A stretch of 64,000 nucleotides of DNA from Komagataeibacter intermedius TF2 (GTDB lineage: Bacteria > Pseudomonadota > Alphaproteobacteria > Acetobacterales > Acetobacteraceae). The DNA lies in contig NZ_BANF01000002.1 of the NCBI RefSeq assembly GCF_000964425.1, positions 1 to 64,000 of the forward strand, read 5' to 3'. The position numbers and the translations under genes were made by a program. Shown here piece after piece: positions 44,196-62,605 of this stretch (positions within the stretch are counted from its first letter, which is position 1; each line of letters begins with the position of its first letter). Below the pieces are notes generated by a model. The model did no database searches and was not told the DNA's origin. It saw only the letters and a list, made by a program, of their open reading frames with translations.

Positions 44196-44205
44196 ATGTA
44201 TACAT
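44196..44205. promoter_or_regulatory. Candidate GntR operator before the alcohol dehydrogenase
   Basis: Perfect 10-bp palindrome ATGTATACAT, 50 bases before the start codon, sharing its TGTATACA core with the sites at 39786, 52106 and 52264. Confidence 0.5.
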
Positions 44206-44255
44206 GTGTTGTTTTATCCTTGTTCATGATCATTTAGGAAATGGGAGAACTGCCT

Positions 44256-45290
44256 ATGTCTGAAACCGATACCATGCGCGTTGTCCGTTTTATGGAACCC
44301 AGGCGCCCGTTTGCCCTGCGCGCGGTATCCGTGCCGTCCCCCGGCCCGGATCAGGTGCGCGTGCGCATTGCCGCATGCGGTGTCTGCCGGACCGACCTGC
44401 ACCTGCGTGACGGACTGCTTGACCTGGGGAAAAGGGATTTCACCGTAGGGCACGAAATCTCCGGCACCATTGAAGCCTGTGGCGATAACGTACCCGCGCA
44501 GTGGCAGGGCAAGCGCGTGGTGATCTATTATTATATCGGCTGCGGCCTGTGCCGCTACTGCCGCAATGGCGAGGAATATCTGTGCCCCGCGCCCAAGGCG
44601 CAGCCCGGCTTTTCGAGCGACGGGGGGTATGCCGAAAATATCGTGGTGCCCCTGCGCAACTGCGTGCCGCTGCCGGACAATGTCGACATGGCGGAAGCTG
44701 CCCCCATGGGCTGTGCCGGTTCGACTGCGGTGCATGCAGGAAAGATGGCTGAAATCCGCCCCGGTGAATGGGTGGTGATCAATGGCGCGGGCGGCGTTGG
44801 CATGGCCGTGGTGCAATATGCACGTTATGCCGGTGGCCGGGTCATTGCGGTGGGCATGGGGGCCGAACGGATGGCGCTGGCCCGGCAGCTTGGCGCGGAA
44901 TACACGATCGACGCGGCGGAGGTGCCCGATGTCGCGGCCCGCGTAGCGGAAATTACCGGCGAGGGGGCGGACGTCGTTTTCGAACTGGTCGGCACAAGCG
45001 CCACGATGAAAGCCTCCATCACCATGCTGCGTCGACGCGGGCGAATGGTCATGATCGGGTATACCGCCGAGGACTTCCATGTTCATCCCGTTGAACTGAT
45101 CGTGCGTGAAATTACCGTGCGCGGGTCGGTCGGTTCATCTCTTGAAGACCTGTATGAAGCCATCGACCTGCTGGCGCGCGGGGTCATCCAGTCGCCCGTA
45201 GCGCGGCGTCACAGTCTTGAAGAATTCGAAACCGCACTGTCCGAAGTGCAGGACGGCGAACTACCCGGCCGTGTCGTGCTGCTTCCATGA
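44256..45290 (+). CDS. Zinc-dependent alcohol dehydrogenase (MDR family)
   Basis: A 344-residue medium-chain dehydrogenase. Catalytic zinc site: CGVCRTDLH, GHEISG. Structural zinc cysteines: CGLCRYCRNGEEYLC. NAD(P)-binding GAGGVGMAVV follows. It oxidises an alcohol to an aldehyde or the reverse. ATG 44256 is preceded by GGGAG; 44241 is an in-frame alternative. The candidate GntR operator just upstream and the aldehyde dehydrogenase in the TenA operon suggest stepwise oxidation of an alcohol group, for example the hydroxymethyl of the thiamine pyrimidine or the hydroxyethyl of the thiazole. Substrate is inference. Confidence 0.88.
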   Translation: MSETDTMRVVRFMEPRRPFALRAVSVPSPGPDQVRVRIAACGVCRTDLHLRDGLLDLGKRDFTVGHEISGTIEACGDNVPAQWQGKRVVIYYYIGCGLCRYCRNGEEYLCPAPKAQPGFSSDGGYAENIVVPLRNCVPLPDNVDMAEAAPMGCAGSTAVHAGKMAEIRPGEWVVINGAGGVGMAVVQYARYAGGRVIAVGMGAERMALARQLGAEYTIDAAEVPDVAARVAEITGEGADVVFELVGTSATMKASITMLRRRGRMVMIGYTAEDFHVHPVELIVREITVRGSVGSSLEDLYEAIDLLARGVIQSPVARRHSLEEFETALSEVQDGELPGRVVLLP

Positions 45291-45295
45291 TCATG

Positions 45296-45325
45296 ACAGG
45301 CAGGGAAAATCGTTTCCCTGCCTGT
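45296..45325. terminator. Bidirectional hairpin between convergent genes
   Basis: A perfect 13-bp stem (45296-45308 with 45313-45325) and 4-base loop between the dehydrogenase stop (45290) and the leftward hydrolase stop (45332). The A/T ends of the stem give a short T-run on both strands. Confidence 0.7.
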
Positions 45326-45331
45326 AACACT

Positions 45332-46168
45332 TTACGCCGCGCTGGCCACAAGGCGCTGCAGGAGGGGAACGACAACCGCATCGAATGCTTCGGGCTGTTC
45401 AAGGTACGGCACGTGGTTCGACTTATCGATAAACACCAGTTCCGGGTTGCCCAGCGCCGTGCGGCAGGCTTCACCCACTTCGGGCGGGACTGCCTTGTCC
45501 TGCTGGCCCCATACCAGAAGCATTTTCTCTGGCGGATAGAGCGCGGACAGCCGCTCCGCCACATAATCGGCAGAAATGCCGTTGACCAGATAATCCCCCA
45601 GCCGCCCGAACGCGGCGCCGGCACCGGGGAATGTATTGATCCGCCATTCCTCCTCGATCATGGCCGGCGTAATGCCCGACGTATCGTACAGGACAAATTT
45701 CAGCTTGTTTCCAAACAGGTTCCTGTCCTGTACCCGGACGTTCCGGCTGATGGTCTCGGCCACGTCCTGGCTGATCGGCACAACACCCAGCGCGCCGACC
45801 AGAACAAGTCCTGGCACACGCCCGGGGGCAGTACATGCCGCATAGGCCGCGATATGCGCCCCCAGCGATGTCCCGACAAGCGGCGCGGACGGGATATCCA
45901 GCGTATCCATGACCTGCAGGATGAAATCGGCAATGGCGGGAACGGTCGAAGGCGCCGTTTCTTCCTTGCTGGCAAACCCGTGTCCGGGCAGGTCACACGC
46001 AATCGCGCGAAAACCCAGCGCGCCAATGCGTTCAACGGTCGTGCGCCAGCGGTCGGCGCGCGCGCCCAGACCATGAATGAACAGGACGGCAGGACCGGTC
46101 CCGGCCTCGATAATACGGGTAAAGCCGTTGCCAACAGCCAGCGGGTAGCAGATGGAGGGAATGGTCAT
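45332..46168 (-). CDS. Alpha/beta hydrolase (C-C bond or ester hydrolase type)
   Basis: A 278-residue cytoplasmic alpha/beta hydrolase: oxyanion strand VLFIHGLGARADRW, nucleophile GTSLGAH, acid in VWGQQDKAVP and catalytic His in DKSNHVPYLEQPEAF. The pattern resembles hydrolases acting after ring cleavage in aromatic pathways. Its ATG overlaps the RidA stop (ATGA) and it is last in the eight-gene leftward operon starting at 52106. Following Rieske oxygenase genes, it may hydrolyse a ring-opened intermediate. Confidence 0.85.
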   Translation of the reverse strand: MTIPSICYPLAVGNGFTRIIEAGTGPAVLFIHGLGARADRWRTTVERIGALGFRAIACDLPGHGFASKEETAPSTVPAIADFILQVMDTLDIPSAPLVGTSLGAHIAAYAACTAPGRVPGLVLVGALGVVPISQDVAETISRNVRVQDRNLFGNKLKFVLYDTSGITPAMIEEEWRINTFPGAGAAFGRLGDYLVNGISADYVAERLSALYPPEKMLLVWGQQDKAVPPEVGEACRTALGNPELVFIDKSNHVPYLEQPEAFDAVVVPLLQRLVASAA

Positions 46169-46566
46169 GAAACTGGGCTTTCAGCTAGGGTTGCGATGGC
46201 TTCGATTTCCATCAGGGTGCCATCACCAATCAGTCCGGCAACCTGCACCAGCGTGCTGGCGGGACGCCATTCGCCAAAGATTTCGGACCGCACCTGATTA
46301 AGCGCGAAACGGTCCTGCAGGTCCGTCAGGAAAAAGGTGAGTTTCACCACATGGCGCAGGTCAGACCCGACACCTTCGAGAATGCGCGACAGAAGGGCGA
46401 AAATGTGCCGGGCCTGCGCCTCGGCATCATTCGCGCCCACCAGGCTGCCATCCTCGGCCAGTGCAAGCAGGCCGGATACATGGATCTGTTCCCCCCCCAG
46501 CACGGCATGCGAATACGGCCCCACCGGCGCGGACAGGCCGGTGGGGCAGAGGGCGCGCGGCATCAT
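46165..46566 (-). CDS. RidA family protein
   Basis: A 133-residue RidA/YjgF protein: PVGPYSHAV near the N-terminus, VKLTFFLTD, and the late VAGLIGDGTLMEIEAIA. RidA enzymes speed up hydrolysis of reactive enamines/imines to ketones and ammonia. The canonical Arg that holds the carboxylate (usually in an R-P-A-R/S-T segment) is replaced: the segment here reads WRPAST. In pyrimidine catabolism (Rut pathway) a RidA-type protein also assists, so its presence fits breakdown of an aminopyrimidine. Four-base overlaps link it to both neighbours. Confidence 0.88.
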   Translation of the reverse strand: MMPRALCPTGLSAPVGPYSHAVLGGEQIHVSGLLALAEDGSLVGANDAEAQARHIFALLSRILEGVGSDLRHVVKLTFFLTDLQDRFALNQVRSEIFGEWRPASTLVQVAGLIGDGTLMEIEAIATLAESPVS

Positions 46567-47048
46567 ATCGGCGTGGCCAGCAGTGTCAGGATCGCGCCGG
46601 TATCGACCAGAACCCGCATCTTCGCAATCCGCAGCACGCCGTCCACGCGCTTCAGTTCGGCATGATAGCGCCCGACGCTGAACAGCCGTGTCTCACCTGC
46701 CTGAATGGACTGGAACAGGGAATACGCGGCCGTGGCGGTCCATGCACCGTCCTGCGCCGTGACACGCACCGGGCCGATGATGTGGCAGTCGTAATGAATG
46801 TTGAAAACGTTCGCTTCACGCAGGGAATAGACGCGGTCGTCAAGCATGTCGCGGCTGTCACACAGCATGAGCGAGAGCGGCAGGTTCTGTTCCACGTTTT
46901 CCCGGCTGATGATTTCATAGAGGCAGTCGGGCATGAACAGGGCTGTCCAGTCTTCCAGCCTGTCTTCATCCAGAAGACGGCCATATTCCTCGAACAACAT
47001 CGTGACTTCCAGATGCATCTCGGGTGAGATGCCACATATGGCGTTCAT
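46563..47048 (-). CDS. Rieske dioxygenase beta subunit
   Basis: A 161-residue small subunit of a ring-hydroxylating oxygenase (NTF2-like fold): FEEYGRLLDEDRLEDWTALF, CLYEIISREN and the late ELKRVDGVLRIAKMRVLVDTG. The beta subunit is structural in alpha3beta3 oxygenases. Its start overlaps the alpha subunit stop by one base (TAATG). No ferredoxin or reductase gene accompanies it in the window. Confidence 0.88.
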   Translation of the reverse strand: MNAICGISPEMHLEVTMLFEEYGRLLDEDRLEDWTALFMPDCLYEIISRENVEQNLPLSLMLCDSRDMLDDRVYSLREANVFNIHYDCHIIGPVRVTAQDGAWTATAAYSLFQSIQAGETRLFSVGRYHAELKRVDGVLRIAKMRVLVDTGAILTLLATPI

Positions 47049-48328
47049 TATGCCGTCTCTCCCGCCCTGATGCCCATAAGCTTGCAGTAATAGATCCAGA
47101 ACCCGCGCATCGGCACGTCACTGATCAGGTTCTCCTGATCCGTTACCGGGCCACGCCCACCGAATTCGACAATGGAATGCTTGTCCATGTCCCGCACGAT
47201 GGCACGGTGCACCAGCTCAACCGCTTCGCCATCTTCCATCGAGACCAGACCCGCGGGACCCGCCAGGTTCGCCTTGCGCAGGCGGTGACGCGTCATGGCT
47301 TCGTCATCATCTTCGTAGCCGAAAAAGGTCGAGACGATTTCAAACTCATCGGCTGAACGCGGGCGCAACTGGCGCACGGCCAGCGTATTGCCGATCTGCT
47401 GCAACGCCGCATTGGCGAACAGCGATGTCACCGCCAGCGTCAGGTTGTCGGGGAATTCCTTGTGGTAACGCAGAAGGGAGGGATCCTTCAGCTTGATGTT
47501 CATGTCCCCACGATCGGTCCCGGCATAGCCGCCATCGCTGGCGCCGTCCTGATCCGTGCGCCCCCCCTGTGCGGCCCAGGACAGGTTATGCTTGCCATCG
47601 GCATCCACGCGCGCGCCGCCGGTGCCGCTCAGGCGCGCAATGCCGAAGGTGATCTGGAACATGTGCAGCAGACCGCCATGGTTGGGGTCGCGCAGGTTAT
47701 CCGTATACAGCTTCCAGTTGCCGAAAATCCTCTGGCGCTGGTAGCCCAGTACCTTGACGGGCTTATGGAACAGCCGTTTGACCTGATGGGTGAACACCGG
47801 ACCCAGATATTCCTCCAGCGGCGGCGTCTCCTCGCAGAAGGTGCCGAAAATGGCACCGTTCATCGTCTCCACCCGCAGGCGCTGCAGGTTGTGGCAGGCC
47901 TTGTCAAAATCGGCAGGCAGGCCACCCACCCCCTTGATCCCCTTCTGGAACGGCACGCCAATCAGCTTGCCGGTCAGGTCAAAGGACCACTGGTGATAGC
48001 AGCATGTATGCACCTTGGTATTGCCATGCAGGTTGCGCTGCACTTCCGCCCCACGGTGGCTGCACCGGTTGACAAGGGCATGCAGGCTGCCATCGCGCGC
48101 ACGGTTGACGATGACCGGCGTATCGCCCACCTCGATCAGGCGATAGTCGCCCGGATTGGGAATCTCCGCTTCCAGCGCAAGGTAATTCCATATCGGGCCG
48201 CGAAAGATACGTTCCTGTTCCAGTTCGAATACATCAGGATCGCGGTACATGCCATATGGTATGCGGCTACAGTCAGCCGCGGGGAAAGTATAGCGTGACA
48301 GGGCATCAGCCCCGGCAGGTGCGGTCAT
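47048..48328 (-). CDS. Rieske non-heme iron oxygenase alpha subunit
   Basis: A 426-residue catalytic subunit. The Rieske cluster ligands are C89 and H91 (NRCSHRG) and C109 and H112 (CCYHQW). The mononuclear iron site has D214-P-N-H217 and H222 (DNLRDPNHGGLLH). It would dihydroxylate or mono-oxygenate an aromatic or heteroaromatic ring. ATG 48328 has GGAG eight bases upstream; the frame is open far upstream on the minus strand but overlaps the amidohydrolase in another frame. The operon also carries a pyrimidine-type importer and hydrolases, so a pyrimidine, thiazole or related ring is the likely substrate. This is inference. Confidence 0.9.
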   Translation of the reverse strand: MTAPAGADALSRYTFPAADCSRIPYGMYRDPDVFELEQERIFRGPIWNYLALEAEIPNPGDYRLIEVGDTPVIVNRARDGSLHALVNRCSHRGAEVQRNLHGNTKVHTCCYHQWSFDLTGKLIGVPFQKGIKGVGGLPADFDKACHNLQRLRVETMNGAIFGTFCEETPPLEEYLGPVFTHQVKRLFHKPVKVLGYQRQRIFGNWKLYTDNLRDPNHGGLLHMFQITFGIARLSGTGGARVDADGKHNLSWAAQGGRTDQDGASDGGYAGTDRGDMNIKLKDPSLLRYHKEFPDNLTLAVTSLFANAALQQIGNTLAVRQLRPRSADEFEIVSTFFGYEDDDEAMTRHRLRKANLAGPAGLVSMEDGEAVELVHRAIVRDMDKHSIVEFGGRGPVTDQENLISDVPMRGFWIYYCKLMGIRAGETA

Positions 48329-48371
48329 GAAGGATACTCCGTATGGGTCGGTCCGGAATGGGGGAAGGGCA

Positions 48372-49718
48372 CTATGGCAACTGCATCGGCGTGTGGCCGG
48401 TGGACGCGCGGGTGTACATCCGCGTCCAGTACCCTTGTGCATTTTCACAGGGGTGGCGCGGTATATCCATCGGCATGTCCGGCAGCACGACACGCGCACC
48501 GCCAAGCCAGACGTCCGTAATGCGTTCCCTGTCTTCAAGCTGCGTGATATCGGCCAGCGGGTCGCCGTCAAACACCAGCAGGTCAGCCAGTTTCCCCGGT
48601 GCGATACTGTCAAACTCCTGGCCACCACGCAGCAGGCTGCGGTTGCGGTGCGTTGCCGTACGCAGCACTTCGTCGGCTGGCATGCCAAGGAACCTGACCA
48701 GGATCGACAGTTCCCGGGTTGCCCATTCGCCATAGGGCGTCATGGAAAAGCCGGTTTCGGATCCACTCAGGATCGGCACGCCCGCGTCATACGCACGGCG
48801 CAGGTTGTCAGTCGCTTCCGCCAGTTCCTGACGCTGCACGTTGGGCCACCAGTCATAGGACGGGTCATCGGGCTGGGCATACTGGATGTTGTTGACCAGC
48901 ATGAGCAGGGAAGGGCAGATCGTGCAGCCTTCCCCCGCGGCGGCGCGCACGCCTTCGTCATCAATGCGGGAAGCATGATAGAGAATGTCCGCCCCGGCGC
49001 GCGCGGCATACAGCACGCCTTCGCGCCCGCGGGCATGTATGGCAACCCGGCGGCCAAGACGGTGGGCTTCCCGGATCATGGCCGTCGTCTCATCCTGCGT
49101 GAACGTTGCATACAGGCCGCCCGAATTGCCGCCCTGTATCCCGTCCATCGCGATCTTGATGATATCGACGCCATCCTTCGTCTGCTGGCGGATGGCCTCT
49201 ATCGCTTCGGGCAGGGATGTGACCAGCCGGCCGGTCGAACATGGCGGACAGCCGATCCATGACGGATAATAGTCATAAAGCCCCTGGCGGGCCGTCAGGG
49301 CCTGTCCGGCTGCGGTGATGCGCGGCCCCTGGAACATCCCGACATACAGCGCATTGCGCAGCGACGGCGTGACCAGACCCGCGCAGGCAGGGTCCAGCAG
49401 GCTGGTAAAGCCCGCGGCCAGCATGCGCTGGGCCGCCGCCAGGGCACGGATCGCGCGGTATTCCAGGTTGGGGTAAAGGTCGACTTCCTCTTCCGAACGG
49501 GCATTGCCGTACGACAGGTGGGTGTGCAGATCGCTCAGTCCCGGCATGACCAGCTGGCGGCTGTAATCAACCACCACGTCATCAGGACCGGAAGCGGGAA
49601 GGGAGGCTGCGGGATAAAGGCCCACGATACGGCCATCTTCGATCACCAGTGCGTGATCATGGCGGTAGGTGGACTCCGTGCCGGTAAAGACACGCCCGCA
49701 TTTCAGAATGGTTCTCAT
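48372..49718 (-). CDS. Amidohydrolase family protein
   Basis: A 448-residue metal-dependent hydrolase: HxH in LSDLHTHLSYGN, a Lys-type segment IIKIAMDG, His-containing AIHARGREG and LYHASRIDD, and late GSETGFS. The pattern matches the Xaa-Pro dipeptidase/molinate hydrolase-like branch, which cleaves amides and carbamates. It could deformylate or open an amide formed by the oxygenase. Start at ATG 49718 overlaps the previous hydrolase stop by four bases; longer starts lie inside that gene. Substrate unknown. Confidence 0.85.
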   Translation of the reverse strand: MRTILKCGRVFTGTESTYRHDHALVIEDGRIVGLYPAASLPASGPDDVVVDYSRQLVMPGLSDLHTHLSYGNARSEEEVDLYPNLEYRAIRALAAAQRMLAAGFTSLLDPACAGLVTPSLRNALYVGMFQGPRITAAGQALTARQGLYDYYPSWIGCPPCSTGRLVTSLPEAIEAIRQQTKDGVDIIKIAMDGIQGGNSGGLYATFTQDETTAMIREAHRLGRRVAIHARGREGVLYAARAGADILYHASRIDDEGVRAAAGEGCTICPSLLMLVNNIQYAQPDDPSYDWWPNVQRQELAEATDNLRRAYDAGVPILSGSETGFSMTPYGEWATRELSILVRFLGMPADEVLRTATHRNRSLLRGGQEFDSIAPGKLADLLVFDGDPLADITQLEDRERITDVWLGGARVVLPDMPMDIPRHPCENAQGYWTRMYTRASTGHTPMQLP

Positions 49719-50575
49719 GCGGAATATCCGGTGGCTAGAAGCAGAAGGGAAAGCGCTGCATCCACGTCCGCTGCCCGTTCGGACATGATGGCATGGCCGC
49801 AGTCGCCCAGAAGGGTCAGATCGGCATGGGGCATATGGTCCAGCACCAGCCGGGCCATGGGGCCAGGCGGACATGCCCGGTCCTGCAGGCCGTGCAGGAT
49901 ACGGACCGGCATGCATATGGCGGATGCCTCCCGTACCGGAAGGGACGCCGCATGCAGGCAGGCATCGGGATCGGCCAGCATGGCGGCGAAGGCGGCGCGA
50001 CGCGCGCTGTCGCCCGCGGCCTGCCAGCGTGCTTCCACCACGGCGGATGGCGGGGGCGCGCAATCCGCCGTCATCGGGCGCATGGCCGCTGCCAGCGCTG
50101 CACGGTCGGCCGGGGCGGACCAGAAATCACGCAGCGCGGGCGTTGCCTGCCGCTGCCCGGCAGGCGCGCCGATAACCAGCACCCCACGCAGGGACGGACG
50201 CCGTGCCGCCACGCGCAGCGACAGCGCACCCCCGACCGAATTGCCAATCAGATGGGCATCTGGCCCGGCATGGTCCAGCACCCGGCCAACCTGTTCGATC
50301 CACAGCGGCACATCAAAGGCACATGTCCTGCCGGGCGGCACGGCGTCGCCAAAACCGATCAGGTCGATGACGTGCACGTCATGACCAGCGGGCAGCCGGG
50401 CCAGCAGGGGGGCGAAATTAATCAGGCCAGTCGTGCCCGGACCGATGCCATGCACCAGCACCAGCGGCGGCGCCCCGCCCGTGCCACGGCGGATACGCCA
50501 TGAAAAGTTGATGTCGTCCACCCTGTCATGCGCCTCGACCCACTGCGGGGCCGCGCCCTGTGCCGGGGCGTTCAT
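49715..50575 (-). CDS. Alpha/beta hydrolase
   Basis: A 286-residue alpha/beta hydrolase: oxyanion strand LVLVHGIGPGTTG, nucleophile GNSVGGALSL, acid in HGLQDRACPPG and catalytic His in GDCGHAIMSERAADV. Substrate unknown. Its ATG overlaps the permease stop (ATGA), linking transport and hydrolysis in one transcript. It is only weakly similar to the second hydrolase of the same operon. Confidence 0.85.
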   Translation of the reverse strand: MNAPAQGAAPQWVEAHDRVDDINFSWRIRRGTGGAPPLVLVHGIGPGTTGLINFAPLLARLPAGHDVHVIDLIGFGDAVPPGRTCAFDVPLWIEQVGRVLDHAGPDAHLIGNSVGGALSLRVAARRPSLRGVLVIGAPAGQRQATPALRDFWSAPADRAALAAAMRPMTADCAPPPSAVVEARWQAAGDSARRAAFAAMLADPDACLHAASLPVREASAICMPVRILHGLQDRACPPGPMARLVLDHMPHADLTLLGDCGHAIMSERAADVDAALSLLLLATGYSA

Positions 50576-51333
50576 CGGGCTGCCCCGCCATTGCCGGGCG
50601 CCCAGTACAGGATGCGGCGCAGGACCCGATCCACTACCGTCCAGATCAGGACCGTCATGACCGCCAGCACGAACAGGGCCGCAAACATGACATCGGTCTG
50701 TATGCGGGCATTGGCGTTCAGCATGACATAGCCCAGCCCGGCGGACGCGCCGACCCATTCACCCACGATCGCACCGATGGGCGCGATGGCCGTGGCGACA
50801 CGCAGCCCGGACCCGAAGGCCGGCATGGCGGCAGGAAGCCGCACATGGCGCAGGATGGCGCCCTGTTTCGCCCCCATTGTGTGGGCCAGGTCCAGCCAGC
50901 CGGGATCGGTATGGCGCAATCCATCGGAAAATGCGGCGGCGACGGGAAAGAAAATGACAATCGTGGCCATGACCACCTTGGACGTCATGCCGAACCCGAA
51001 CCACAGCACCAGAAGCGGCGCCATGGCGAAGGCCGGAATGGCCTGGCTCAGCAGCAGCAGCGGCATGATCCAGCGCTGCAGGCGTGGGGAAAAGGCCATT
51101 GCCAGCGCACACAGGCTACCCAGAAGCGTGCCGATGACCAGCCCGAGCGCCATTTCGGAAAATGTGGTGAATGTGGCCGACGCCAGCAGCATGCGCTGCT
51201 GCCACAGTGCATGCAGCACGGCGGGCGGTTGCGGCAGCAGATAGAACGGAATGCCGCCCAGGCGTGTCACGGCCCACCATGCGCCGATCAGCACGACAAA
51301 CGTGACAACAGGCCGGACCAGTGTCGGGATCAT
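50572..51333 (-). CDS. ABC transporter permease (ThiX/SsuC type)
   Basis: A 253-residue permease with about six helices and the EAA loop (LAHTMGAKQGAILRHVRLPAAMP). With the ATPase upstream and the THI5-like binding protein encoded on the other side of the control region it makes a complete importer, arranged like ThiXYZ, which carries formylaminopyrimidine in Bacillus. Starts at ATG 51333, overlapping the ATPase stop by four bases. Confidence 0.88.
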   Translation of the reverse strand: MIPTLVRPVVTFVVLIGAWWAVTRLGGIPFYLLPQPPAVLHALWQQRMLLASATFTTFSEMALGLVIGTLLGSLCALAMAFSPRLQRWIMPLLLLSQAIPAFAMAPLLVLWFGFGMTSKVVMATIVIFFPVAAAFSDGLRHTDPGWLDLAHTMGAKQGAILRHVRLPAAMPAFGSGLRVATAIAPIGAIVGEWVGASAGLGYVMLNANARIQTDVMFAALFVLAVMTVLIWTVVDRVLRRILYWAPGNGGAAR

Positions 51334-52106: not shown

Positions 52107-52114
52107 GTATACAA
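52105..52114. promoter_or_regulatory. Candidate GntR operator overlapping the ATPase start
   Basis: ATGTATACAA (plus strand) shares two bases with the start codon of the leftward operon's first gene. Same core as the sites at 39786, 44197 and 52264. Confidence 0.55.
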
Positions 52115-52262: not shown

Positions 52263-52272
52263 ATGTATACAT
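52263..52272. promoter_or_regulatory. Candidate GntR operator before the THI5-like gene
   Basis: Perfect palindrome ATGTATACAT, 55 bases upstream of the binding-protein start codon. Together with the site at 52105, it brackets the 220-base region between the two divergent operons. Confidence 0.55.
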
Positions 52273-52326
52273 TTTGGTGAATGTTCTTTTTTGGCGACAT
52301 GTCCGGATGAACAGAAAAGGCAGCAC

Positions 52327-53379: not shown

Positions 53380-53744
53380 GAGCCAACGCCCCCCGGATCG
53401 ATCCGGCCGACCTTGACCCGGTGCGTGAATTCCGGGCCTGTCCCATTGGTTTGCACAGCCCCGCGCTGGAAGCGGTGCTGAATATCCTGCGCGCGGGAAC
53501 AATGGGTGGGAAATACTGCATCATCTGCCTGGAACCCCACAGGAAATGGGCGCTGGGCCGCCTGTCGGGCATACGCGGCGTACCACCCGACGTCGTGCCG
53601 GGCGTGGAATATGACGACCTTGAGGAAGCGGAATGGGATGTCTTCCGCCGACGGTGGGAGGCGGAAACCGGCACGCGCCTGCCCCCCGAATTCGACGGCC
53701 CCCTGCACGCACCCTCCACGAACACGGCGGGAGAAAGCCGATGA
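53376..53744 (+). CDS. N,N-dimethylformamidase-like small subunit
   Basis: A 122-residue protein that matches the small subunit of N,N-dimethylformamidase in size and pattern: EFRACPIGLHSPALEAVLN, CIICLEPHRKWALG and EEAEWDVFRRRWE. It sits directly before the large-subunit gene with ATGA overlaps on both sides, as in the known dmfA1A2 arrangement. The small subunit is needed for the alpha2beta2 enzyme. It is not catalytic itself. Confidence 0.8.
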   Translation: MRANAPRIDPADLDPVREFRACPIGLHSPALEAVLNILRAGTMGGKYCIICLEPHRKWALGRLSGIRGVPPDVVPGVEYDDLEEAEWDVFRRRWEAETGTRLPPEFDGPLHAPSTNTAGESR

Positions 53745-55969
53745 AAACCCTGCTTGGCTATGCCGACCAGATCAGCGTGACGGCGGGAGACGAAATTGCG
53801 TTCCGTGTCAGCAGCGAAACGGCTGAAACGTATGACGCCACGATCGTGCGGATTGTAAATGGTGACCTGAATCCCGCTGGTTCCGGCTACCGTGAGGAAG
53901 ACGTGCCCGGCACTGCATGGCACATTCAGGGGCGGCCACAGAAGATCCATGCGGGTTCGTGCATCGTGGTTGACACGGCGGTGCCGCTGGAACGCCTGGC
54001 CGCTGGCTGGCGCGTTACGCTGCTGGCGCGCCCAACCCTGCCGGACAGCAGCGGGCAGGACGGGACAGGACAGGTCATGTTCAGCCTGCGCGATCGCGTG
54101 TCGGGCGGCGGAATGGAAATTGGCATAAAGGGGGAGGAAGGCGCTTACGTCACGGTGCAGGGCAGTCAGGCACGCGTGACCTGTGCCGCGGGCGTGCCAA
54201 TGCGCCGCCATGAATGGTACCGGGTGCGCGTCGCATTTGACGCGGCAAAGGGCGAACTGACCCTGTCGCAGGCCGCGCTGGAAAGCTGCGCCGGCATAGC
54301 CGACAGCGCGGACGTCACGGTTGCCTGCGCCGTTGAACCGGCATGGACATCCGCCGCGCGCATCATCATCGCGGCCCGCGCCACCGCCGAAGGCGAAAAC
54401 ATTTTCGGTGGTTTCTATAATGGCAAGCTCGAAGCGCCCTGCCTGCTGGACCACGCGGGCGCCGTGATCGGGCAGTGGGATTTTTCCATCGGGATCGATG
54501 GACAGGACATCTGCGATCAGGGTCCATTCCACCTGCATGGCCATACATGGCAGATGCCCGGGCGCGCCATGACCGGCCATAACTGGAACGGCAGCATACG
54601 CGCATGGCAGGATGCGCCGGAACAGTATGGCGCCATTCATTTCCATGAAGACGATATTATTGACGCCGGATGGGCCACGGATTTTGCGTGGCAGGTTCCC
54701 TCGGGGCTGAAAAGCGGGCTTTATGCCGCCCGCCTGCGCAGTGCGACGGATGAGGATTATATCCCCTTTGTCATCCGTCGCGCAGCAGGCACGGGGCATG
54801 CACCGCTGGTTTTTGTCCTGCCGACCGCAAGCTACCTGGCATACGCCAACGAACATCTTGCCATTGATGCCGCCCTGGCGGAGCGGGTGCACGACCACGT
54901 GCCCGTATTTGGCGCATCGGACGTGTTCCTGGCGGAACGGCGCGAATTCGGCGCATCGCTGTATGACCGGCACAGCGACGGGTCGGGCATCATGATATCC
55001 TCGCGCCTGCGCCCGGTGCTGAACATGCGCCCCAAATACCAGTCATGGCTGGGGGGAACCGGGTCGGGCCTGTGGCAGATGAACGCCGACACGCATATCA
55101 TCGACTGGCTGGAACACGAAGGTTTTGACTACGACATCATTACCGACGAGGACCTGGACCGCGAAGGAGTAAAGGCGCTTTCCCCCTACAGGTGCGTCAT
55201 GCTGGCCAGCCACCCTGAATATGTCTCGACCCGGATGCTCGATGCGCTGGCGGCGCACCGCGCGGATGGCGGGCGACTGGTGTCGCTGGGGGGCAACGCG
55301 CTGTACTGGCGCGTGGTCTATCATCCCACCATGCCCGGCGTGATGGAACTGCGCCGCTGCGAGGTCGGCAATGGCTGGATTACCGACCCGGGTGAAAGCT
55401 GCCATGCCTTTGGCGGTGAATATGGTGGCCTGTGGGAACGCATCGGCCGGCCGCCGCATGAAACCCTGGGGTCCGGCTTTATCGGACAGGGTTTTGACAA
55501 ATGCACCTATTTCCGTCGGCAGGCGGACAGTTACAACCCGCGCGCGGCCTTCATATTCGACGGGATAGAGGGCGACATCATCGGGGATTTCGGGCTGATT
55601 GGCGGGGGGGCCGCGGGCATAGAACTGGACCGCGCCAACAGCGCGAAGGGCACGCCGCTGAACACGCTGGTGCTGGCGCGCTCGGAAGGACATACCAACA
55701 CCTACCTTCCGTCAACCTGTGCGCTGCTGATCAATTACGCCGGGCAGGGGGCAGCCCAGTCCGATCTTGTCCGCGCCGAAATCGTATTTTTCGAGACAGC
55801 CGAAGGCGGCGCGGTCTTTTCCACCGGGTCGATCGCGTGGAGCGGCAGCCTGTCCCATGCGGATTACGACAATTCCGTCTCGCGCATGACGGGCAATGTC
55901 GTGCGGCGCTTTATCGATCCGGCACCCTTTGAACTGCCTGCATCGGCAGCCAGACCCGTCTCTTTCTGA
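53741..55969 (+). CDS. N,N-dimethylformamidase-like large subunit
   Basis: A 742-residue protein of the N,N-dimethylformamidase beta-subunit family, which hydrolyses formamides using a mononuclear iron. An N-terminal lectin-like region (about 1-200) is followed by the catalytic core with SYLAYAN, LYDRHSDGSG, and HPEY (H491, E493), matching the His/Glu iron ligands of the Paracoccus enzyme; Tyr408 in LYDRHSDG is a candidate for the third ligand. In this operon the natural substrate could be N-formylaminopyrimidine, with the enzyme replacing the deformylase of the known thiamine-salvage route. Dimethylformamide or another formamide is possible too. Confidence 0.87.
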   Translation: MKTLLGYADQISVTAGDEIAFRVSSETAETYDATIVRIVNGDLNPAGSGYREEDVPGTAWHIQGRPQKIHAGSCIVVDTAVPLERLAAGWRVTLLARPTLPDSSGQDGTGQVMFSLRDRVSGGGMEIGIKGEEGAYVTVQGSQARVTCAAGVPMRRHEWYRVRVAFDAAKGELTLSQAALESCAGIADSADVTVACAVEPAWTSAARIIIAARATAEGENIFGGFYNGKLEAPCLLDHAGAVIGQWDFSIGIDGQDICDQGPFHLHGHTWQMPGRAMTGHNWNGSIRAWQDAPEQYGAIHFHEDDIIDAGWATDFAWQVPSGLKSGLYAARLRSATDEDYIPFVIRRAAGTGHAPLVFVLPTASYLAYANEHLAIDAALAERVHDHVPVFGASDVFLAERREFGASLYDRHSDGSGIMISSRLRPVLNMRPKYQSWLGGTGSGLWQMNADTHIIDWLEHEGFDYDIITDEDLDREGVKALSPYRCVMLASHPEYVSTRMLDALAAHRADGGRLVSLGGNALYWRVVYHPTMPGVMELRRCEVGNGWITDPGESCHAFGGEYGGLWERIGRPPHETLGSGFIGQGFDKCTYFRRQADSYNPRAAFIFDGIEGDIIGDFGLIGGGAAGIELDRANSAKGTPLNTLVLARSEGHTNTYLPSTCALLINYAGQGAAQSDLVRAEIVFFETAEGGAVFSTGSIAWSGSLSHADYDNSVSRMTGNVVRRFIDPAPFELPASAARPVSF

Positions 55970-56003
55970 AAAGATGAAGATTCATGATAAAAAGGATTTC
56001 GCG

Positions 56004-57515
56004 ATGACGGCGTCCCGCATGGAACCCGACCTTGCAACCCTGCTGGGGCCGGATGCGTCCGCCATCCTGTCAGCGCCGCATCGTAATTTCATTGATGGCC
56101 AGTGGCGTGACAGCCTGTCGGGGGAAACCTTTCCCGTAACCGACCCGGCAACCGGGCAGGAGATCGCACGCATTCCCCTTTCGGGCAGCGCGGATGTCGA
56201 CCTTGCCGTGGCCAGCGCGCGCCATGCGCTGGAGGACGGGCCATGGGCGCGCATGAACGGCGCGGAGCGCGGCCGGCTACTGTGGCGACTGGCCGACCTG
56301 CTCCATCAGCAGGCGGACGTGTTCGCCCGCCTGGAGGCGCTTGATACCGGGCGGCCGGTTTTTGAAACCCGCCTTGTGGACCTGCCCGGCTCGATCGGCA
56401 TGCTGGAATACATGGCGGGCTGGTCAACCAAGATAAACGGGGAAAGCGTGCCCGTATCCGCCCCCGGCACGTTCCATGCCTATACCGAGCGTGAACCGGT
56501 TGGCGTGGTGGCGGTCATCGTGCCATGGAATTACCCGCTGGAACTGGCAATATGGCGCATGGCCCCGGCACTGGCGGCCGGGTGTACCGTTGTCCTCAAG
56601 CCTGCGGAACAGACGGCGCTGACCACGCTGCATCTGGGCCGCCTGATCGCAGAAGCAGGCTTTCCCCCCGGCGTGGTCAATATCGTGTCGGGGGAAGGCG
56701 AAACCGCCGGGGCGGCGCTTGCCGAACACGGGGATGTCAATGCGATCTCCTTTACCGGCTCCACGCAGGTCGGGCGCGAAATCATCCGCGCGGCAGCGGG
56801 AAACATGAAACGGGTCTTTCTGGAACTTGGCGGCAAATCACCCATGATCGTGCTGGACGATGCCGATCTGGAACAGGCGGTACCGGGTATTGCATCCGCC
56901 ATTTTCTTCAGCGCGGGACAGGTCTGCACGGCGGGGTCGCGCGTGTTCGTGCATGAACGCATCTATGACCGCCTGCTTGATGGCATTGTCGCCTTTGCCC
57001 GGAACCTGGAAATCGGGCACGGGCTGAATGACGCCACCCGTCTTGGCCCGCTGGTTTCAGCCGGGCAGCGTGACAGGGTGGCCGGGTACCTGGCGGAAGC
57101 GGCCCGCACCGGCACACGCTTCGCAACGGGTGGCGCACCCGTTGATGGCCCGGGCTATTTCATGCAGCCCACCATTGCGGTTGATGTCGATCCGCAGGCG
57201 GCACTGTACCGCGAGGAAATCTTCGGTCCGGTCCTGTGTGTCCGCCGGTTTGGCGATGACCAGATCGATGATGTCGTGCGCATGGCCAATGATACGGTCT
57301 ACGGCCTGCATGCCAGTATCTGGACAACAGGCCTGTCACGCGCCCACACCCTGGCGCGACGCATCAAGGCGGGCAATGTATGCATCAACACGCATAATTT
57401 CTTTGATCCCGCGTTTCCCATGGGCGGGTTCAAGCAGTCGGGCTGGGGACGCGCGGCCGGTTTCCCTGCTATAGAACATTATACGGAACTGAAGGGAATT
57501 GTTGCGCGCCTATGA
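56004..57515 (+). CDS. Aldehyde dehydrogenase
   Basis: A 503-residue NAD(P)-dependent aldehyde dehydrogenase: VPWNYPLELA, KPAEQTAL, FTGSTQVG, catalytic E274 (LELGGKSP) and C308 (GQVCTAGSR), EEIFGPVL and the C-terminal MGGFKQSGWGR. AAGGA precedes ATG 56004; an earlier ATG at 55974 is poor. The enzyme resembles betaine-aldehyde/aminoaldehyde dehydrogenases. It probably oxidises the aldehyde made by the alcohol dehydrogenase at 44.3 kb or released by another enzyme of the system. ATGA coupling to the GntR gene. Confidence 0.9.
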   Translation: MTASRMEPDLATLLGPDASAILSAPHRNFIDGQWRDSLSGETFPVTDPATGQEIARIPLSGSADVDLAVASARHALEDGPWARMNGAERGRLLWRLADLLHQQADVFARLEALDTGRPVFETRLVDLPGSIGMLEYMAGWSTKINGESVPVSAPGTFHAYTEREPVGVVAVIVPWNYPLELAIWRMAPALAAGCTVVLKPAEQTALTTLHLGRLIAEAGFPPGVVNIVSGEGETAGAALAEHGDVNAISFTGSTQVGREIIRAAAGNMKRVFLELGGKSPMIVLDDADLEQAVPGIASAIFFSAGQVCTAGSRVFVHERIYDRLLDGIVAFARNLEIGHGLNDATRLGPLVSAGQRDRVAGYLAEAARTGTRFATGGAPVDGPGYFMQPTIAVDVDPQAALYREEIFGPVLCVRRFGDDQIDDVVRMANDTVYGLHASIWTTGLSRAHTLARRIKAGNVCINTHNFFDPAFPMGGFKQSGWGRAAGFPAIEHYTELKGIVARL

Positions 57516-58249
57516 CCGATGAAGATGCACTGACAGGGAACGTCACACCGGCAACAGCCCGGGCGCGAAGCCGCCGCACCGCCCGCAAGGGGACGACGCG
57601 TGCGCCCACGCTGGCCAGTATCGTGCAGGAGCGTATCCAGAAGGCGATCGTATCCGGGGTCTTTACACCCGGCATGTGGCTGGAGGAAGAAAGCCTGGGA
57701 CAGATGTTCAGTGTATCGCGCACGCCCGTGCGCGAGGCACTACGCCGCCTTGCCGCGCAGGGAACGGTTGAAATCCGCCCCCGACAGGGCGTGATCGTCA
57801 CCAAGATGAACGATACCCGCGTAGTGCAGACGCTGGAGGTCATAGCCGAACTTGAAGCCGCAACCGCAAGGCTTGCGGCAGAGCGCATGAGCGACGCGGA
57901 ACGCGACAACCTGCATGCGATCAACGAAGAACTGTCAGACATCATACGCAACGGAAGCCGTGCCGGTTTCGACCGGCATAACGAACGCCTGCATGCCGCG
58001 ATCAGGCAGGGCGCCCATAACGAGATCATGGCCGATTCCGTAACGCAGATGCGTCAGCGCGTGCTGCCCTATACACGCGTCGAGCGAATGGAATCAGTCG
58101 AACAGATGACCGTATCCCACGGACAGCACCAGACGATTGTCTTTGCCATTCTGGAAGGACACGGCGAACTGGCCTACCAGACAATGCGCGTGCACGTCAT
58201 GCAGACAGGCCAGCTGGCCGAGGACGGGGATCCTGACCACGGGGACTGA
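57512..58249 (+). CDS. GntR/FCD family regulator, presumed local repressor
   Basis: A 245-residue regulator: winged HTH at about residues 35-100 (GMWLEEESLGQMFSVSRTPV, EALRRLAAQGTVEIRPRQG) and an all-helical FCD ligand domain (about 110-235) with a metal/effector His set (D-RHNERLHAAI, H-GQHQTI). The basic N-terminus is unusual (TARARSRRTARKGTTR). FCD GntR proteins bind palindromes of the TnGTnnACnA type; TGTATACA palindromes lie before at least four operons here. It is co-transcribed with the genes it probably controls. Confidence 0.88.
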   Translation: MTDEDALTGNVTPATARARSRRTARKGTTRAPTLASIVQERIQKAIVSGVFTPGMWLEEESLGQMFSVSRTPVREALRRLAAQGTVEIRPRQGVIVTKMNDTRVVQTLEVIAELEAATARLAAERMSDAERDNLHAINEELSDIIRNGSRAGFDRHNERLHAAIRQGAHNEIMADSVTQMRQRVLPYTRVERMESVEQMTVSHGQHQTIVFAILEGHGELAYQTMRVHVMQTGQLAEDGDPDHGD

Positions 58250-58307
58250 GCCATCCGGTCAGCACTCCACCACAGCAGAGCACGCCAGATAGAGAAAGCA
58301 TGCAGAC

Positions 58308-59018
58308 ATGAATATCCAGACAGGACCGGATACGACCCCCGAATGCATCAAGGGGACGTTTTTTGCACGACTGCGCAACGCCGCGCCAGCCGCGTGGCAG
58401 GGTTACGTAGGGCACCCGTTCGTGCGCGGCATGGCGGATGGCACGCTGGATCCCGCGCGGTTCCGGGCGTTTCTCATGCAGGATTACCTGTACCTGCTCA
58501 ATTACGCCCGGGCGTATGCGCTGGCAGTCTATAAAAGCGACAGTTTTGAGGAAATGCGGGAATCCGCCGATATCGTGGCGGGTATCCTGAATACGGAAAT
58601 GGCCATGCATTTTTCGTATTGCGAAGGCTGGGGCCTGAGCCGCGCGGAAATGGAAGCCCATCCCCCCGCGCAGGAGCTGCGTGCCTATGCTGGCTTCATC
58701 CTGGACCGTGCACAGGCGGGCGACCTGCTTGACCTGCTGGTGGCTTTGTCGGCCTGCCTGGTGGGATATGGCGAAATCGGGCTGGCGCTGGCGAATGACC
58801 CCGCAACCGTGCGCGAAGGCAATCCCTATTTCTCCTGGGTCAGCGTATATGCCGATGAACCCTATCAGGACCTGATGCGCAGGGGCCTTGCCCGTCTTGA
58901 TATCGTGGCGGCCCGGCGCGGGGGCGTGGCGCGCCTGCCGGAACTGACACGCCTGTTCACAACGGCCGTATCGCTGGAAACCGCATTCTGGACTGCGGGA
59001 CAGGCGGAAATGACATAA
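58308..59018 (+). CDS. tenA: TenA/thiaminase II family aminopyrimidine hydrolase
   Basis: A 236-residue all-helical TenA protein. Active-site candidates: D59 (MQDYLYLLNYARAY), C150 and Y154 (LSACLVGYGE) and a Glu near 225 (SLETAFW). TenA hydrolyses 4-amino-5-aminomethyl-2-methylpyrimidine to HMP and ammonia in salvage of degraded thiamine, and can cleave thiamine. It lies in one operon with a pyrimidine importer, a formamidase and a thiaminase I-like gene. Catalytic Cys is present, so the classical (TenA_C) reaction is expected. Confidence 0.9.
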   Translation: MNIQTGPDTTPECIKGTFFARLRNAAPAAWQGYVGHPFVRGMADGTLDPARFRAFLMQDYLYLLNYARAYALAVYKSDSFEEMRESADIVAGILNTEMAMHFSYCEGWGLSRAEMEAHPPAQELRAYAGFILDRAQAGDLLDLLVALSACLVGYGEIGLALANDPATVREGNPYFSWVSVYADEPYQDLMRRGLARLDIVAARRGGVARLPELTRLFTTAVSLETAFWTAGQAEMT

Positions 59019-59081
59019 ATATACAGCGCCATCATGGCAGCATGACCGCACATGGTTACAGTATAACGACAGGATACCGGC

Positions 59082-60593
59082 ATGTCTTCAACAAGTAATC
59101 GTCAGCATGTCATGCGGCCACATGGTACGCTGGCGCGAAAGGGGGCGGGGCTGTGCGCCGTCATGGGGATGCTGGCGCTGCCGCATGCGGCGCTGTGTGG
59201 TGATCTGGTTGTCCGCAATACGGGCGCGGCGGATGCACAATGCCACGTCGTGGACAGTGGCAGAGCCGATGCCGTCTTTACCGTAAAGGCGCAGGACACG
59301 GCGCATGTCGGCGTCCCGACGGGCGGCATGATCAACAGCGTTGAATGCAACGGCCTGAAAACCCGTGAAATGCACATAACCCCGAAGGGAATGGATGGTT
59401 ACGTCGTGCTGAATGGCAGACAGAAGCGCGTGCTGAACGTCTCGCTCTATCCATTCATTCCCAGCCTGCCAAACGGCAATTTCCAGACACTGGTCCAGCA
59501 CGTCATCGCTACCTATCAGGACCGTAACCCGGACGTGCTGCTGAACGCCGTGATGAGCGAGGACGTGGATATCTATAATCCGGCCCGCCTGCTGCAGCTC
59601 CTGTCCGGCAGGGGGTATGATGTCGTCGAACTGGATACATTATACATCGAATTCCTTGCCGCCCATAAACGCATCGCGCCGGTACGCATAAGTGGGGACG
59701 CGCCATGGCAGTCGGGCCACGATGCCGTACTGTACCACGGCGTGACCTATGCCGTGCCAAGCTGGCTGTGTCTTGATTTCCTCTATTCCTATTCCCCGGA
59801 TATCAAGGACATACATGGGCTGGATCAGTTCATGTCCTACCTCAATCGCGAACCGGCGGAAAAACGCCGTATTTCCGCCGATTTTTCAGGCACGACCCGC
59901 CTGCCATCCCTTTATATAGACGGCTATGTGCAGCGTTACGGCCATGACCATATCCGCGATGCCTTTCGCATGCCGCCCGACCCGCAGGTCGTGAACAGCC
60001 TTATGCGCCTTGCCATCACCTGCACGGATGGGAAGGAAAATCATTGCGTTGACGGGACGCTCAGCCGCGCTGCGGATGGTGATGTGGACAGGATCTTCGC
60101 CGAAGGAAAAAGCGGCTTTGATATCGGTTTTTCCGAGCAGAGCTTCTATATCAACCTGTTCAACCCCACCCATGCCGCGTCCCTTGCCATGATCCCCGTG
60201 CCATGGGGCGAAAATGGCCAGTCCATGCTGTACAGCGATGCGTTTGTCACGAACAGGACATCATGTTCCAGTACGTCATGCCAAACCGACAGTACCGCGT
60301 TCACGACCATGATGACGGGGAAGGAAATGAAGACATATATCGCCTTTTCCCAGGACCTGCCGCAGGGAACGCCCGCACGCCACCTTCTGGTCGGCACCCG
60401 CCCGTTCTGGGATCAGCAGCAGGTTCGTGACGATCCCATTTACAGCCAGGTCAGGACTGTTATCGAAACAGGCCAGGCATTTCCGCATGACCTGAATGAA
60501 TCCCTGCGTGACCGGATGGCGCGGGATGTGTGCCTCATGCTCAGAAAAGACATTCCCCAGTATGACTGCGACATGACGAAGGGGCCGATGTAG
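59082..60593 (+). CDS. Secreted thiaminase I-like protein (thiamine pyridinylase)
   Basis: A 503-residue protein with a signal peptide (residues about 22-39) and an extra 75-residue domain before a thiaminase I domain (about 117-500). I recognise it from LYPFIP, YDVVELDTLYIEFLAAHK, the active-site Cys230 in VPSWLCLDFLY, the catalytic Glu352 in GFDIGFSEQ, and LYSDAFVTNR, all in the order seen in characterised thiaminase I. That enzyme swaps the thiazole of thiamine for another nucleophile, releasing thiazole and a pyrimidine adduct. Export fits its role outside the cell. It is 63 bases after tenA and probably the last gene of the operon. The fold is shared with binding proteins, but both catalytic residues argue for an enzyme. 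Confidence 0.78.
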   Translation: MSSTSNRQHVMRPHGTLARKGAGLCAVMGMLALPHAALCGDLVVRNTGAADAQCHVVDSGRADAVFTVKAQDTAHVGVPTGGMINSVECNGLKTREMHITPKGMDGYVVLNGRQKRVLNVSLYPFIPSLPNGNFQTLVQHVIATYQDRNPDVLLNAVMSEDVDIYNPARLLQLLSGRGYDVVELDTLYIEFLAAHKRIAPVRISGDAPWQSGHDAVLYHGVTYAVPSWLCLDFLYSYSPDIKDIHGLDQFMSYLNREPAEKRRISADFSGTTRLPSLYIDGYVQRYGHDHIRDAFRMPPDPQVVNSLMRLAITCTDGKENHCVDGTLSRAADGDVDRIFAEGKSGFDIGFSEQSFYINLFNPTHAASLAMIPVPWGENGQSMLYSDAFVTNRTSCSSTSCQTDSTAFTTMMTGKEMKTYIAFSQDLPQGTPARHLLVGTRPFWDQQQVRDDPIYSQVRTVIETGQAFPHDLNESLRDRMARDVCLMLRKDIPQYDCDMTKGPM

Positions 60594-62584: not shown

Positions 62585-62605
62585 AACGGGGGAAGTGGTC
62601 GGATC

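Follow-up and report, generated by a model that had tools for sequence, protein, structure and literature searches.

A candidate thiamine-pyrimidine catabolic gene cluster encoding a thiaminase I family protein in Komagataeibacter intermedius

Results

We analyzed a 64,000-nt stretch of the Komagataeibacter intermedius TF2 genome (contig NZ_BANF01000002.1, positions 1 to 64,000; hereafter the window), in which a gene cluster at 44241-60593 encodes a ThiXYZ-like importer (ATPase, permease and the substrate-binding protein SBP1), TenA, a thiaminase I-like protein, a dimethylformamidase (DMFase)-like enzyme of two subunits (DMFs and DMFl), a Rieske oxygenase with AndAc-like large and AndAd-like small subunits, RidA, a metal-dependent amidohydrolase, two alpha/beta hydrolases (ABH1 and ABH2), an alcohol and an aldehyde dehydrogenase (ADH and ALDH) and a GntR regulator (Table 1). 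An earlier reading of the letters alone (the sequence-only reading) had named these genes in adjacent units, and all are found there, on the expected strands and in families that match in comparisons with Pfam, NCBIfam and the PDB. Its two divergent operons stand as units diverging from a promoter at 52107-52326; the ADH gene makes up a third unit. The many 4-base overlaps that it reported occur at eight junctions (ATPase/permease, permease/ABH2, ABH2/amidohydrolase at 49718/49715, AndAd/RidA, RidA/ABH1, SBP1/DMFs, DMFs/DMFl and ALDH/GntR), and AndAc and AndAd overlap by 1 base.

The sequence-only reading had named lack of a conserved neighbourhood in related genomes as one of the findings that would speak against it, but the neighbourhood is conserved. 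A core consisting of the ThiXYZ-like importer, GntR, ADH, ALDH, the AndA-like Rieske pair, the amidohydrolase, RidA, ABH1 and ABH2 is common, with gaps in bog_908, to eight genomes spanning two classes: that of the window, Komagataeibacter oboediens, Komagataeibacter rhaeticus (cluster divided between two contigs), the Acetobacteraceae genomes bog_908 (a metagenome-assembled genome, MAG) and G787, Tanticharoenia, Pseudomonas typographi and Pseudomonas sp. MWU16-30317. When the species genome collection was scanned for the Rieske large subunit by peptide pattern, which reaches close relatives only, 14 loci were returned, six with the core, two with parts of it beside a more distant binding protein (Rhizobium Q54 and OFTM385) and six without it. 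G787, which came from a search of 397 Acetobacteraceae genomes, has the gene order ATPase, permease, ABH2, amidohydrolase, Rieske pair, RidA, ABH1, ADH, ALDH, GntR, SBP1, DMFs, DMFl, TenA. Recurrence of the core exceeds chance when set against 20 neighbourhoods of other Acetobacteraceae DMFase relatives, described below. Of the 397 genomes, five have thiaminase I (E<=1e-6) and six have the Rieske gene (E<=1e-135); four have both, against 0.08 expected (hypergeometric 7e-8 for genomes and 2.3e-4 for genera, the latter with three shared and four and five among 102). One further genome, G760, has the Rieske gene only (53% identity), the rest of the core being absent from its 10.8-kb contig.

The remaining genes are distributed less evenly. 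TenA and the DMFase (at least 55% identity) are both present in five of the eight core holders (the three Komagataeibacter, bog_908 and G787) and both absent in three (Tanticharoenia and the two Pseudomonas), counts in which the three Komagataeibacter are not independent; thiaminase I is found in 5/8, a set that includes Tanticharoenia and not G787. DMFs, DMFl and TenA are consecutive in G787. No DMFase relative reaches E<=1e-40 in Tanticharoenia; those of both Pseudomonas are 37-39% identical and located elsewhere. Strong PF03070 matches in these three genomes were considered as TenA and rejected, since they are PqqC; each Pseudomonas has a second, weak PF03070 match (E 2e-8 and 3e-9). From this gene content we distinguish a conserved core, made up of the importer, ADH, ALDH, Rieske enzyme, amidohydrolase, RidA and hydrolases, from two putative feeder modules that are missing in some holders, namely DMFase with TenA, and thiaminase I.

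As a single query, the thiaminase I-like protein finds no match in Pfam, NCBIfam or the PDB. A five-sequence profile that includes it matches the thiaminase I structures 2thi, 3thi and 4thi at E 4-6e-28 (4.2e-28 for 2thi), as well as 4kys (1e-18) and 4hcw (2.5e-9), and the bog_908 homologue alone matches 2thi at 3.8e-16. Cys230 and Glu352 of the window protein align with Cys113 and Glu241 of 2thi, which we take to be the catalytic pair, and are invariant in all six sequences compared. By profile and residues, then, the protein belongs to the thiaminase I family, as the sequence-only reading had supposed, and its hydrophobic, signal-like N-terminus indicates that it is probably exported. It resembles 2thi and 4kys, presumably from Paenibacillus and Clostridium, over the catalytic part, and differs from them in about 75 additional N-terminal residues, shared by the Komagataeibacter proteins and the Tanticharoenia C80 protein, and in a gene context that appears catabolic, not that of bacimethrin. 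AlphaFold prediction with three close sequences gave a mean predicted local distance difference test score (pLDDT) of 37, and the model was not used.

Homologues of this protein are 96% identical in K. oboediens, 80% in K. rhaeticus, 49% and 24% in Tanticharoenia, 22-26% in bog_908 and 54-57% in the genome G866. Thiaminase I-like genes are present in three of 100 genomes in a set of relatives (all Komagataeibacter, a genus with 19 genomes in the set) and in one of 398 in a draw from the phylum, the window's own. The plasmid collection gave one weak match, in Bradyrhizobium (25% over half of the protein), which was set aside because none of its 23 annotated neighbours is a thiamine or core gene. 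In bog_908 the diverged gene is part of the cluster, flanked by GntR and a second SBP1, and the Tanticharoenia gene lies on another contig than the core, beside a TonB receptor.

The importer and TenA together, one of the features by which base-degraded thiamine salvage is recognized, occur in the window cluster. The best PDB match of SBP1 is the formylaminopyrimidine (FAMP)-binding protein 3ix1 (3.4e-30). A Rhizobium plasmid locus with TenA encodes an ATPase, permease and binding protein that are 68%, 63% and 43% identical to those of the window, and a Paracoccaceae plasmid locus with a binding protein 45% identical to SBP1 encodes TenA together with a protein annotated as FAMP deformylase; overall, TenA stands beside an SBP1 homologue in three of the five plasmid loci fetched, and the other two carry no annotation. 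In a tree of 16 binding proteins, the five nearest to SBP1 are core- or TenA-linked (path lengths 1.2-1.7), and two other NMT1 proteins of the window fall on long separate branches. An alignment of six TenA sequences shows the conserved Cys of the C..GY.E region, presumably a functional residue.

The DMFase large subunit keeps the residues Tyr399, Tyr440, Glu521 and His519 of 6lvb, and FAMP is an N-substituted formamide. In the part of the literature available to us, the first three of these residues are the iron ligands of Paracoccus DMFase, an enzyme that acts on formamides and not on acetamide (PMC7686228), which makes the cluster enzyme a reasonable candidate FAMP deformylase. An N-acyl substrate is also conceivable, since the fold family contains an N-acetyl-beta-phenylalanine acylase. 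The small subunit-like protein has no match in Pfam or among solved structures; its homologues directly precede the large subunit in 8/20 other Acetobacteraceae loci. As a marker of the cluster the DMFase gene was rejected: relatives (E<=1e-60) occur in 59 of 250 genomes of the order, and 20 places fetched from 18 genomes lack the cluster. These 20 neighbourhoods of other Acetobacteraceae DMFase relatives (some ended by contig ends) gave no match at E<=1e-4 to the importer binding protein, the Rieske enzyme, TenA or thiaminase.

Six core Rieske large subunits (from the window, K. rhaeticus, Tanticharoenia, bog_908 and both Pseudomonas, the tree containing neither K. oboediens nor G787) form a clade of their own, with support of 100/99.7, apart from the AndAc clade. 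The solved structures related to the amidohydrolase are amide hydrolases and Xaa-Pro dipeptidase, and its Glu in GSETG is kept in five of six aligned sequences, that of the window included; OFTM385 has Asp (GTDSG).

Three units of the window are preceded by the motif TGTATACA. The divergent promoter contains two sites of the shorter TGTATAC, counted on either strand, and a third site precedes ADH, which makes three in 705 intergenic bases against 0.08 expected, with six more sites in the remaining 63,295 bases; RTGTATACAW is found at six places in the 3.88-Mb genome, three of them in the cluster. All eight genomes have one or more exact copies of TGTATACA in the promoter region of the unit that starts with the ATPase gene or of that starting with ALDH. 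The Pseudomonas site lies in the gap between GntR and ALDH, and one of two sites in bog_908 falls inside a possible longer frame of a neighbouring monooxygenase gene. We propose that the GntR regulator binds this motif. Consensus promoters (7 against 6.7 expected) and terminators (8 against 12.3) were not above shuffles.

Three relatives carry additional genes near these modules. ThiM (hydroxyethylthiazole kinase), a flavin mononucleotide (FMN) monooxygenase of the NtaA/DmoA family and a rhodanese/mercaptopyruvate-sulfurtransferase-like protein adjoin the core in bog_908 and G787 and thiaminase I in Tanticharoenia; the bog_908 and G787 monooxygenases are 65-66% identical to that of Tanticharoenia, and in both genomes an amidase accompanies these genes. 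A second FMN monooxygenase lies in the pyrimidine part of all three (67% and 70% to the Tanticharoenia protein). Pseudomonas sp. MWU16-30317 has ThiM (66% to that of Tanticharoenia) about 9-10 kb from its core. This arrangement suggests a thiazole branch in the three relatives, one that is not seen in the Komagataeibacter cluster: a thiazole module in the window genome was looked for and rejected, as no relative of the Tanticharoenia monooxygenase was found at E<=1e-80 and the Komagataeibacter ThiM (52%) lies on another contig than the cluster.

The operator-like motif, a TonB receptor, and an NCS1 permease with a cytosine-deaminase-like gene go beyond the content of the earlier note. The receptor is 55% identical to the one adjoining thiaminase I in Tanticharoenia and 32-35% identical to two other window receptors compared, and TTGTATACAA stands upstream of it at 39787. 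The permease matches the CytX model TIGR02358 (putative HMP transporter) at 5.5e-23, below cut-off, and is syntenic in K. oboediens and K. rhaeticus; among the Rieske-scan loci compared, the deaminase-like gene adjoins the core in Komagataeibacter only. A 45% homologue of the AhpC/TSA plus Fe-dioxygenase-like protein is encoded on the bog_908 cluster contig (L103:7078-8109).

Table 1. Features of the cluster and its surroundings in the window. Holders are the eight genomes with the core.
Feature	Position	Strand	Evidence or remark
TonB-dependent receptor, possible outer-membrane uptake part (linked)	37127..39652	-	Pfam TonB barrel and plug
AhpC/TSA plus Fe-dioxygenase-like protein, possible part	39884..40972	+	matches below curated cut-offs
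NCS1 nucleobase-type permease, possible part	41105..42478	+	PF02133
Cytosine-deaminase-like amidohydrolase, possible part	42475..43755	+	NF005748, 652 bits (cut-off 438)
Operator-like ATGTATACAT	44196..44205	.	35 bases from ADH start
Zinc alcohol dehydrogenase ADH (proposed HMP to aldehyde)	44241..45290	+	PF00107/PF08240; 8/8 holders
Alpha/beta hydrolase ABH1	45332..46168	-	PF00561; 8/8 holders; six sequences aligned
RidA enamine/imine deaminase	46165..46566	-	PF01042; 7/8 holders, not bog_908
Rieske oxygenase small subunit, AndAd-like	46563..47048	-	NF041685, 144 bits (2e-42; cut-off 230)
Rieske oxygenase large subunit, AndAc-like	47048..48328	-	NF041684, 447 bits (cut-off 750); ATG at 48328
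Metal-dependent amidohydrolase (proposed ring opener)	48372..49718	-	PF01979; ATG at 49718; 8/8 holders
Alpha/beta hydrolase ABH2	49715..50575	-	PF12697; 7/8 holders, not bog_908
ABC permease, ThiX-like	50572..51333	-	PF00528
ABC ATPase, ThiZ-like	51330..52106	-	PF00005
Operator-like ATGTATACAA in divergent promoter	52105..52114	.	motif search
Operator-like ATGTATACAT in divergent promoter	52263..52272	.	motif search
Substrate-binding protein SBP1, ThiY/THI5 family	52327..53379	+	PF09084, 7e-51; SRRGF motif near N-terminus
DMFase small subunit-like (DMFs), 122 aa	53376..53744	+	homologues sited before DMFase large subunit elsewhere
DMFase large subunit-like amidase (DMFl; proposed FAMP deformylase)	53741..55969	+	PF20254, 1.7e-91
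Aldehyde dehydrogenase ALDH (proposed aldehyde to pyrimidine carboxylate)	55974..57515	+	PF00171, 2.6e-167; start 55974 or 56004
GntR/FCD regulator (proposed reader of TGTATACA motif)	57512..58249	+	PF00392, PF07729; 8/8 holders
TenA, aminopyrimidine aminohydrolase	58308..59018	+	PF03070; TIGR04306, 132.3 bits (cut-off 130)
Thiaminase I-like protein, probably exported, 503 residues	59082..60593	+	profile match, catalytic pair, hydrophobic N-terminus

Several other loci were seen in passing. Downstream of the cluster, a unit that is syntenic in K. oboediens (window 60616-63607 and L009:1-3614) encodes dihydrodipicolinate synthase-like and creatininase-family proteins, a second NMT1-type binding protein, ABC transporter genes and a 197-aa protein that matches MgsA_C weakly. 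Elsewhere in the window, 30478-34742 holds another NMT1-type binding protein, an amidohydrolase (Pfam) and permease-looking reading frames, and 20397-28055 encodes large proteins that, judged by eye, resemble the nitrite and nitrate reductases of nitrate assimilation. Near the Tanticharoenia core, L075:16970-17641 encodes a [2Fe-2S] protein of the molybdenum-hydroxylase type (Fer2/Fer2_2). The cluster on a plasmid of Thioclava sp. GXIMD2076 (L065:8885-17480) is a different one; it comprises an AndAc-like Rieske pair, RidA, RraA, a ferredoxin, GntR and an ABC importer, and possibly encodes a related pathway for N-heteroaromatic compounds. The OFTM385 (L073) and Rhizobium Q54 (L072) MAGs hold a sister cluster with a Rieske pair, an ABC importer and RidA, joined in OFTM385 by ABH1 and the amidohydrolase; since its binding protein is quite different, it perhaps acts on another substrate.

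Discussion

Our analysis suggests that these genes probably, though by no means certainly, form a catabolic cluster for the pyrimidine half of thiamine, controlled by one GntR regulator, in which thiaminase I, the DMFase and TenA would feed 4-amino-5-hydroxymethyl-2-methylpyrimidine (HMP) to the core. The sequence-only reading had proposed thiamine degradation with salvage or catabolism of the pyrimidine. Its gene content and general idea hold up, with the ThiXYZ-type importer, TenA and the iron ligands of the DMFase; what has shifted is the emphasis, as the oxidative set would be the core and the other modules its feeders, and the pyrimidine to be oxidized and opened would, given an AndAc-type dioxygenase, be oxidized HMP.

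It is known that thiamine decay or thiaminase gives pyrimidine compounds, and that TenA makes HMP from the aminomethyl form. From the observed gene identities, family residues, neighbourhood and promoter motif we infer the substrate, the order and the chemistry of six steps. Exported thiaminase I would cut thiamine outside the cytoplasm, and chemically decaying thiamine would give FAMP (step 1); the SBP1/ATPase/permease importer, of ThiYZX type, would bring in the pyrimidine (step 2); the DMFase-like enzyme would strip the formyl group from FAMP, and TenA would convert the aminomethyl compound to HMP (step 3). As HMP is a primary alcohol, ADH and ALDH would convert it to 4-amino-2-methylpyrimidine-5-carboxylate (step 4), a compound that has long been recognized in animals as arising from thiamine breakdown. 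Dioxygenases of the AndAc type turn anthranilate into catechol, releasing ammonia and CO2, and we propose this chemistry for the pyrimidine carboxylate because its amino and carboxylate groups sit on adjacent ring carbons, as in anthranilate: the AndAc-like enzyme would dihydroxylate it and, with ammonia and CO2 lost, 4,5-dihydroxy-2-methylpyrimidine would result (step 5). This product would suit a metal amidohydrolase, because its keto form is a cyclic amide. After ring opening by the amidohydrolase, hydrolases would take off the acetamidine or acetyl part and RidA would hydrolyse the enamine that remains, with small acids, acetate and ammonia as end products (step 6); the need of such an amidine or enamide for hydrolases and an enamine deaminase matches the remaining core genes.

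The proposed pathway borrows from several known systems. Like base-degraded thiamine salvage (ThiXYZ, YlmB, TenA), it has a ThiY-type importer and TenA with a formamide-hydrolysing enzyme family encoded beside them; unlike in that system, the deformylase would be a DMFase-type iron enzyme and not YlmB, and HMP would go to oxidation and ring opening. No YlmB-type deformylase is encoded among the window cluster genes, the part of the genome searched. Both Rieske subunits are homologous to anthranilate 1,2-dioxygenase AndAc/AndAd, but score below the curated cut-offs, and neither catechol genes nor genes for a ferredoxin or reductase are among those of the cluster. The Rut uracil pathway ends with a RidA-type protein and an alpha/beta hydrolase (RutC and RutD), an ending that the cluster would share; however, RutC against RidA (75 of 169 bits) and RutD against ABH1 (41 of 238 bits) are far below cut-off, and no RutA is found among the window cluster genes. 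Finally, as in the vitamin B6 and B2 catabolic clusters, a vitamin N-heterocycle would be opened by an oxygenase and a hydrolase, although the vitamin and the gene set are different.

Among the alternatives, it is conceivable, if unlikely, that the true substrate of the core is a different aromatic or pyrimidine with ortho amino and carboxylate groups (anthranilate, or a plant or microbial antivitamin) and that the thiamine-related genes were added later. The AndAc type of the large subunit, the Pseudomonas cores without TenA or thiaminase, and the related yet different clusters of Thioclava, Rhizobium Q54 and OFTM385 would fit such a history. However, the core enzymes form a clade separate from AndAc, the importer is ThiY-like, and the cluster has no catechol dioxygenase gene, whereas among the four annotated relative loci three encode such an enzyme within the stretch fetched and the fourth has 3-oxoadipate genes.

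We regard it as rather improbable that the cluster serves salvage only, with thiaminase I, importer, DMFase and TenA recovering HMP for thiamine synthesis and the Rieske enzyme, ADH and ALDH doing an unrelated job. Importer plus TenA is indeed the known salvage set, and in Paenibacillus, according to the accessible part of one study, thiaminase I adjoins thiamine salvage genes (PMC5627462). Yet it is the oxidative genes that are more widely conserved; they have promoter regions and the motif in common with the importer, and Tanticharoenia and the two Pseudomonas keep the importer and oxidative core without TenA. Furthermore, ThiC is present in six of eight genomes searched (a set with OFTM385 in place of G787), missing only in the bog_908 and OFTM385 MAGs; it is present in the window's own genome, so salvage is not forced there by auxotrophy. 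An antivitamin cluster of the bacimethrin type, with thiaminase I as a weapon, is hardly credible: Paenibacillus bacimethrin operons do contain thiaminase I, but of the other genes named in the available text (thymidylate synthase, glycosyltransferase, deoxyribosyltransferase and methyltransferase; PMC5627462) none is among those of the cluster.

It should be noted that several observations weigh against pyrimidine catabolism as we propose it. Both Pseudomonas have the core without TenA, thiaminase I or a DMFase of more than 39% identity, and for this reason our deduction of the core substrate relies on the importer and on the members of the Acetobacteraceae. In G787 the core is not accompanied by thiaminase I; in G866 thiaminase I stands without the core, the only relative beside it being a 64% identical ADH directly after it; and bog_908 lacks RidA and ABH2, has ALDH only as a fragment at the locus and has a TenA that scores 116.8 bits against TIGR04306, below the cut-off of 130. 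The tree branch that joins core- and TenA-linked binding proteins is without strong support, and the Rieske enzyme lacks a ferredoxin or reductase partner among the window cluster genes; in both Pseudomonas a reductase gene adjoins ADH. As to regulation, Rfam at gathering threshold gives no match in the window, hence no thiamine pyrophosphate riboswitch. In K. rhaeticus and both Pseudomonas the ADH gene has no such motif ahead of it, and the same holds for TenA and thiaminase I of the window. The motif occurs also within genes in bog_908, and it is not enriched genome-wide (six and three strand matches to RTGTATACAW against four and four for the reversed control), so that its position, and not its number, is informative.

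A wider scheme can be put forward more tentatively, and we consider it doubtful. Acetobacteraceae may have a system for both halves of thiamine, with extracellular thiaminase I, dearomatization of the pyrimidine as an aza-anthranilate and processing of the thiazole by ThiM, FMN monooxygenase, amidase and rhodanese, of which Komagataeibacter would keep the pyrimidine half only. In bog_908 a single contig holds thiaminase I, the larger part of the core and the complete set of thiazole genes; Tanticharoenia and G787 carry most of these components. If real, such a system would assign thiaminase I a role in nutrition, and in the absence of YlmB an enzyme of the DMFase type would serve as FAMP deformylase.

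The available text of a 2025 paper describes vitamin catabolism as well characterized only for B6, nicotinamide adenine dinucleotide (NAD) and riboflavin, the last of which employs a Rieske enzyme (PMC12746152), and that of a 2017 paper calls the biological function of thiaminase I, known from bacimethrin and thiamine operons, a mystery (PMC5627462). The sequence-only reading knew of no described system with this gene combination, and our literature searches for thiamine and HMP catabolic genes, with subscription journals mostly outside their reach, likewise found no such cluster. With moderate confidence, we therefore regard the genes as a putative vitamin catabolic cluster of a kind for which, in the case of thiamine and HMP, these searches found no description.

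In summary, the cluster offers genes and strains (Komagataeibacter oboediens LMG 18849, Tanticharoenia sakaeratensis NBRC 103193 and Pseudomonas sp. MWU16-30317) with which thiamine catabolism and the function of thiaminase I can be tested. It also supplies a candidate FAMP deformylase for organisms without a clear YlmB, such as are noted in the part of the literature open to us (PMC10470507). If the proposed pathway is correct, it may have a bearing on the loss of vitamin B1 in vinegar-type fermentations and in soils.

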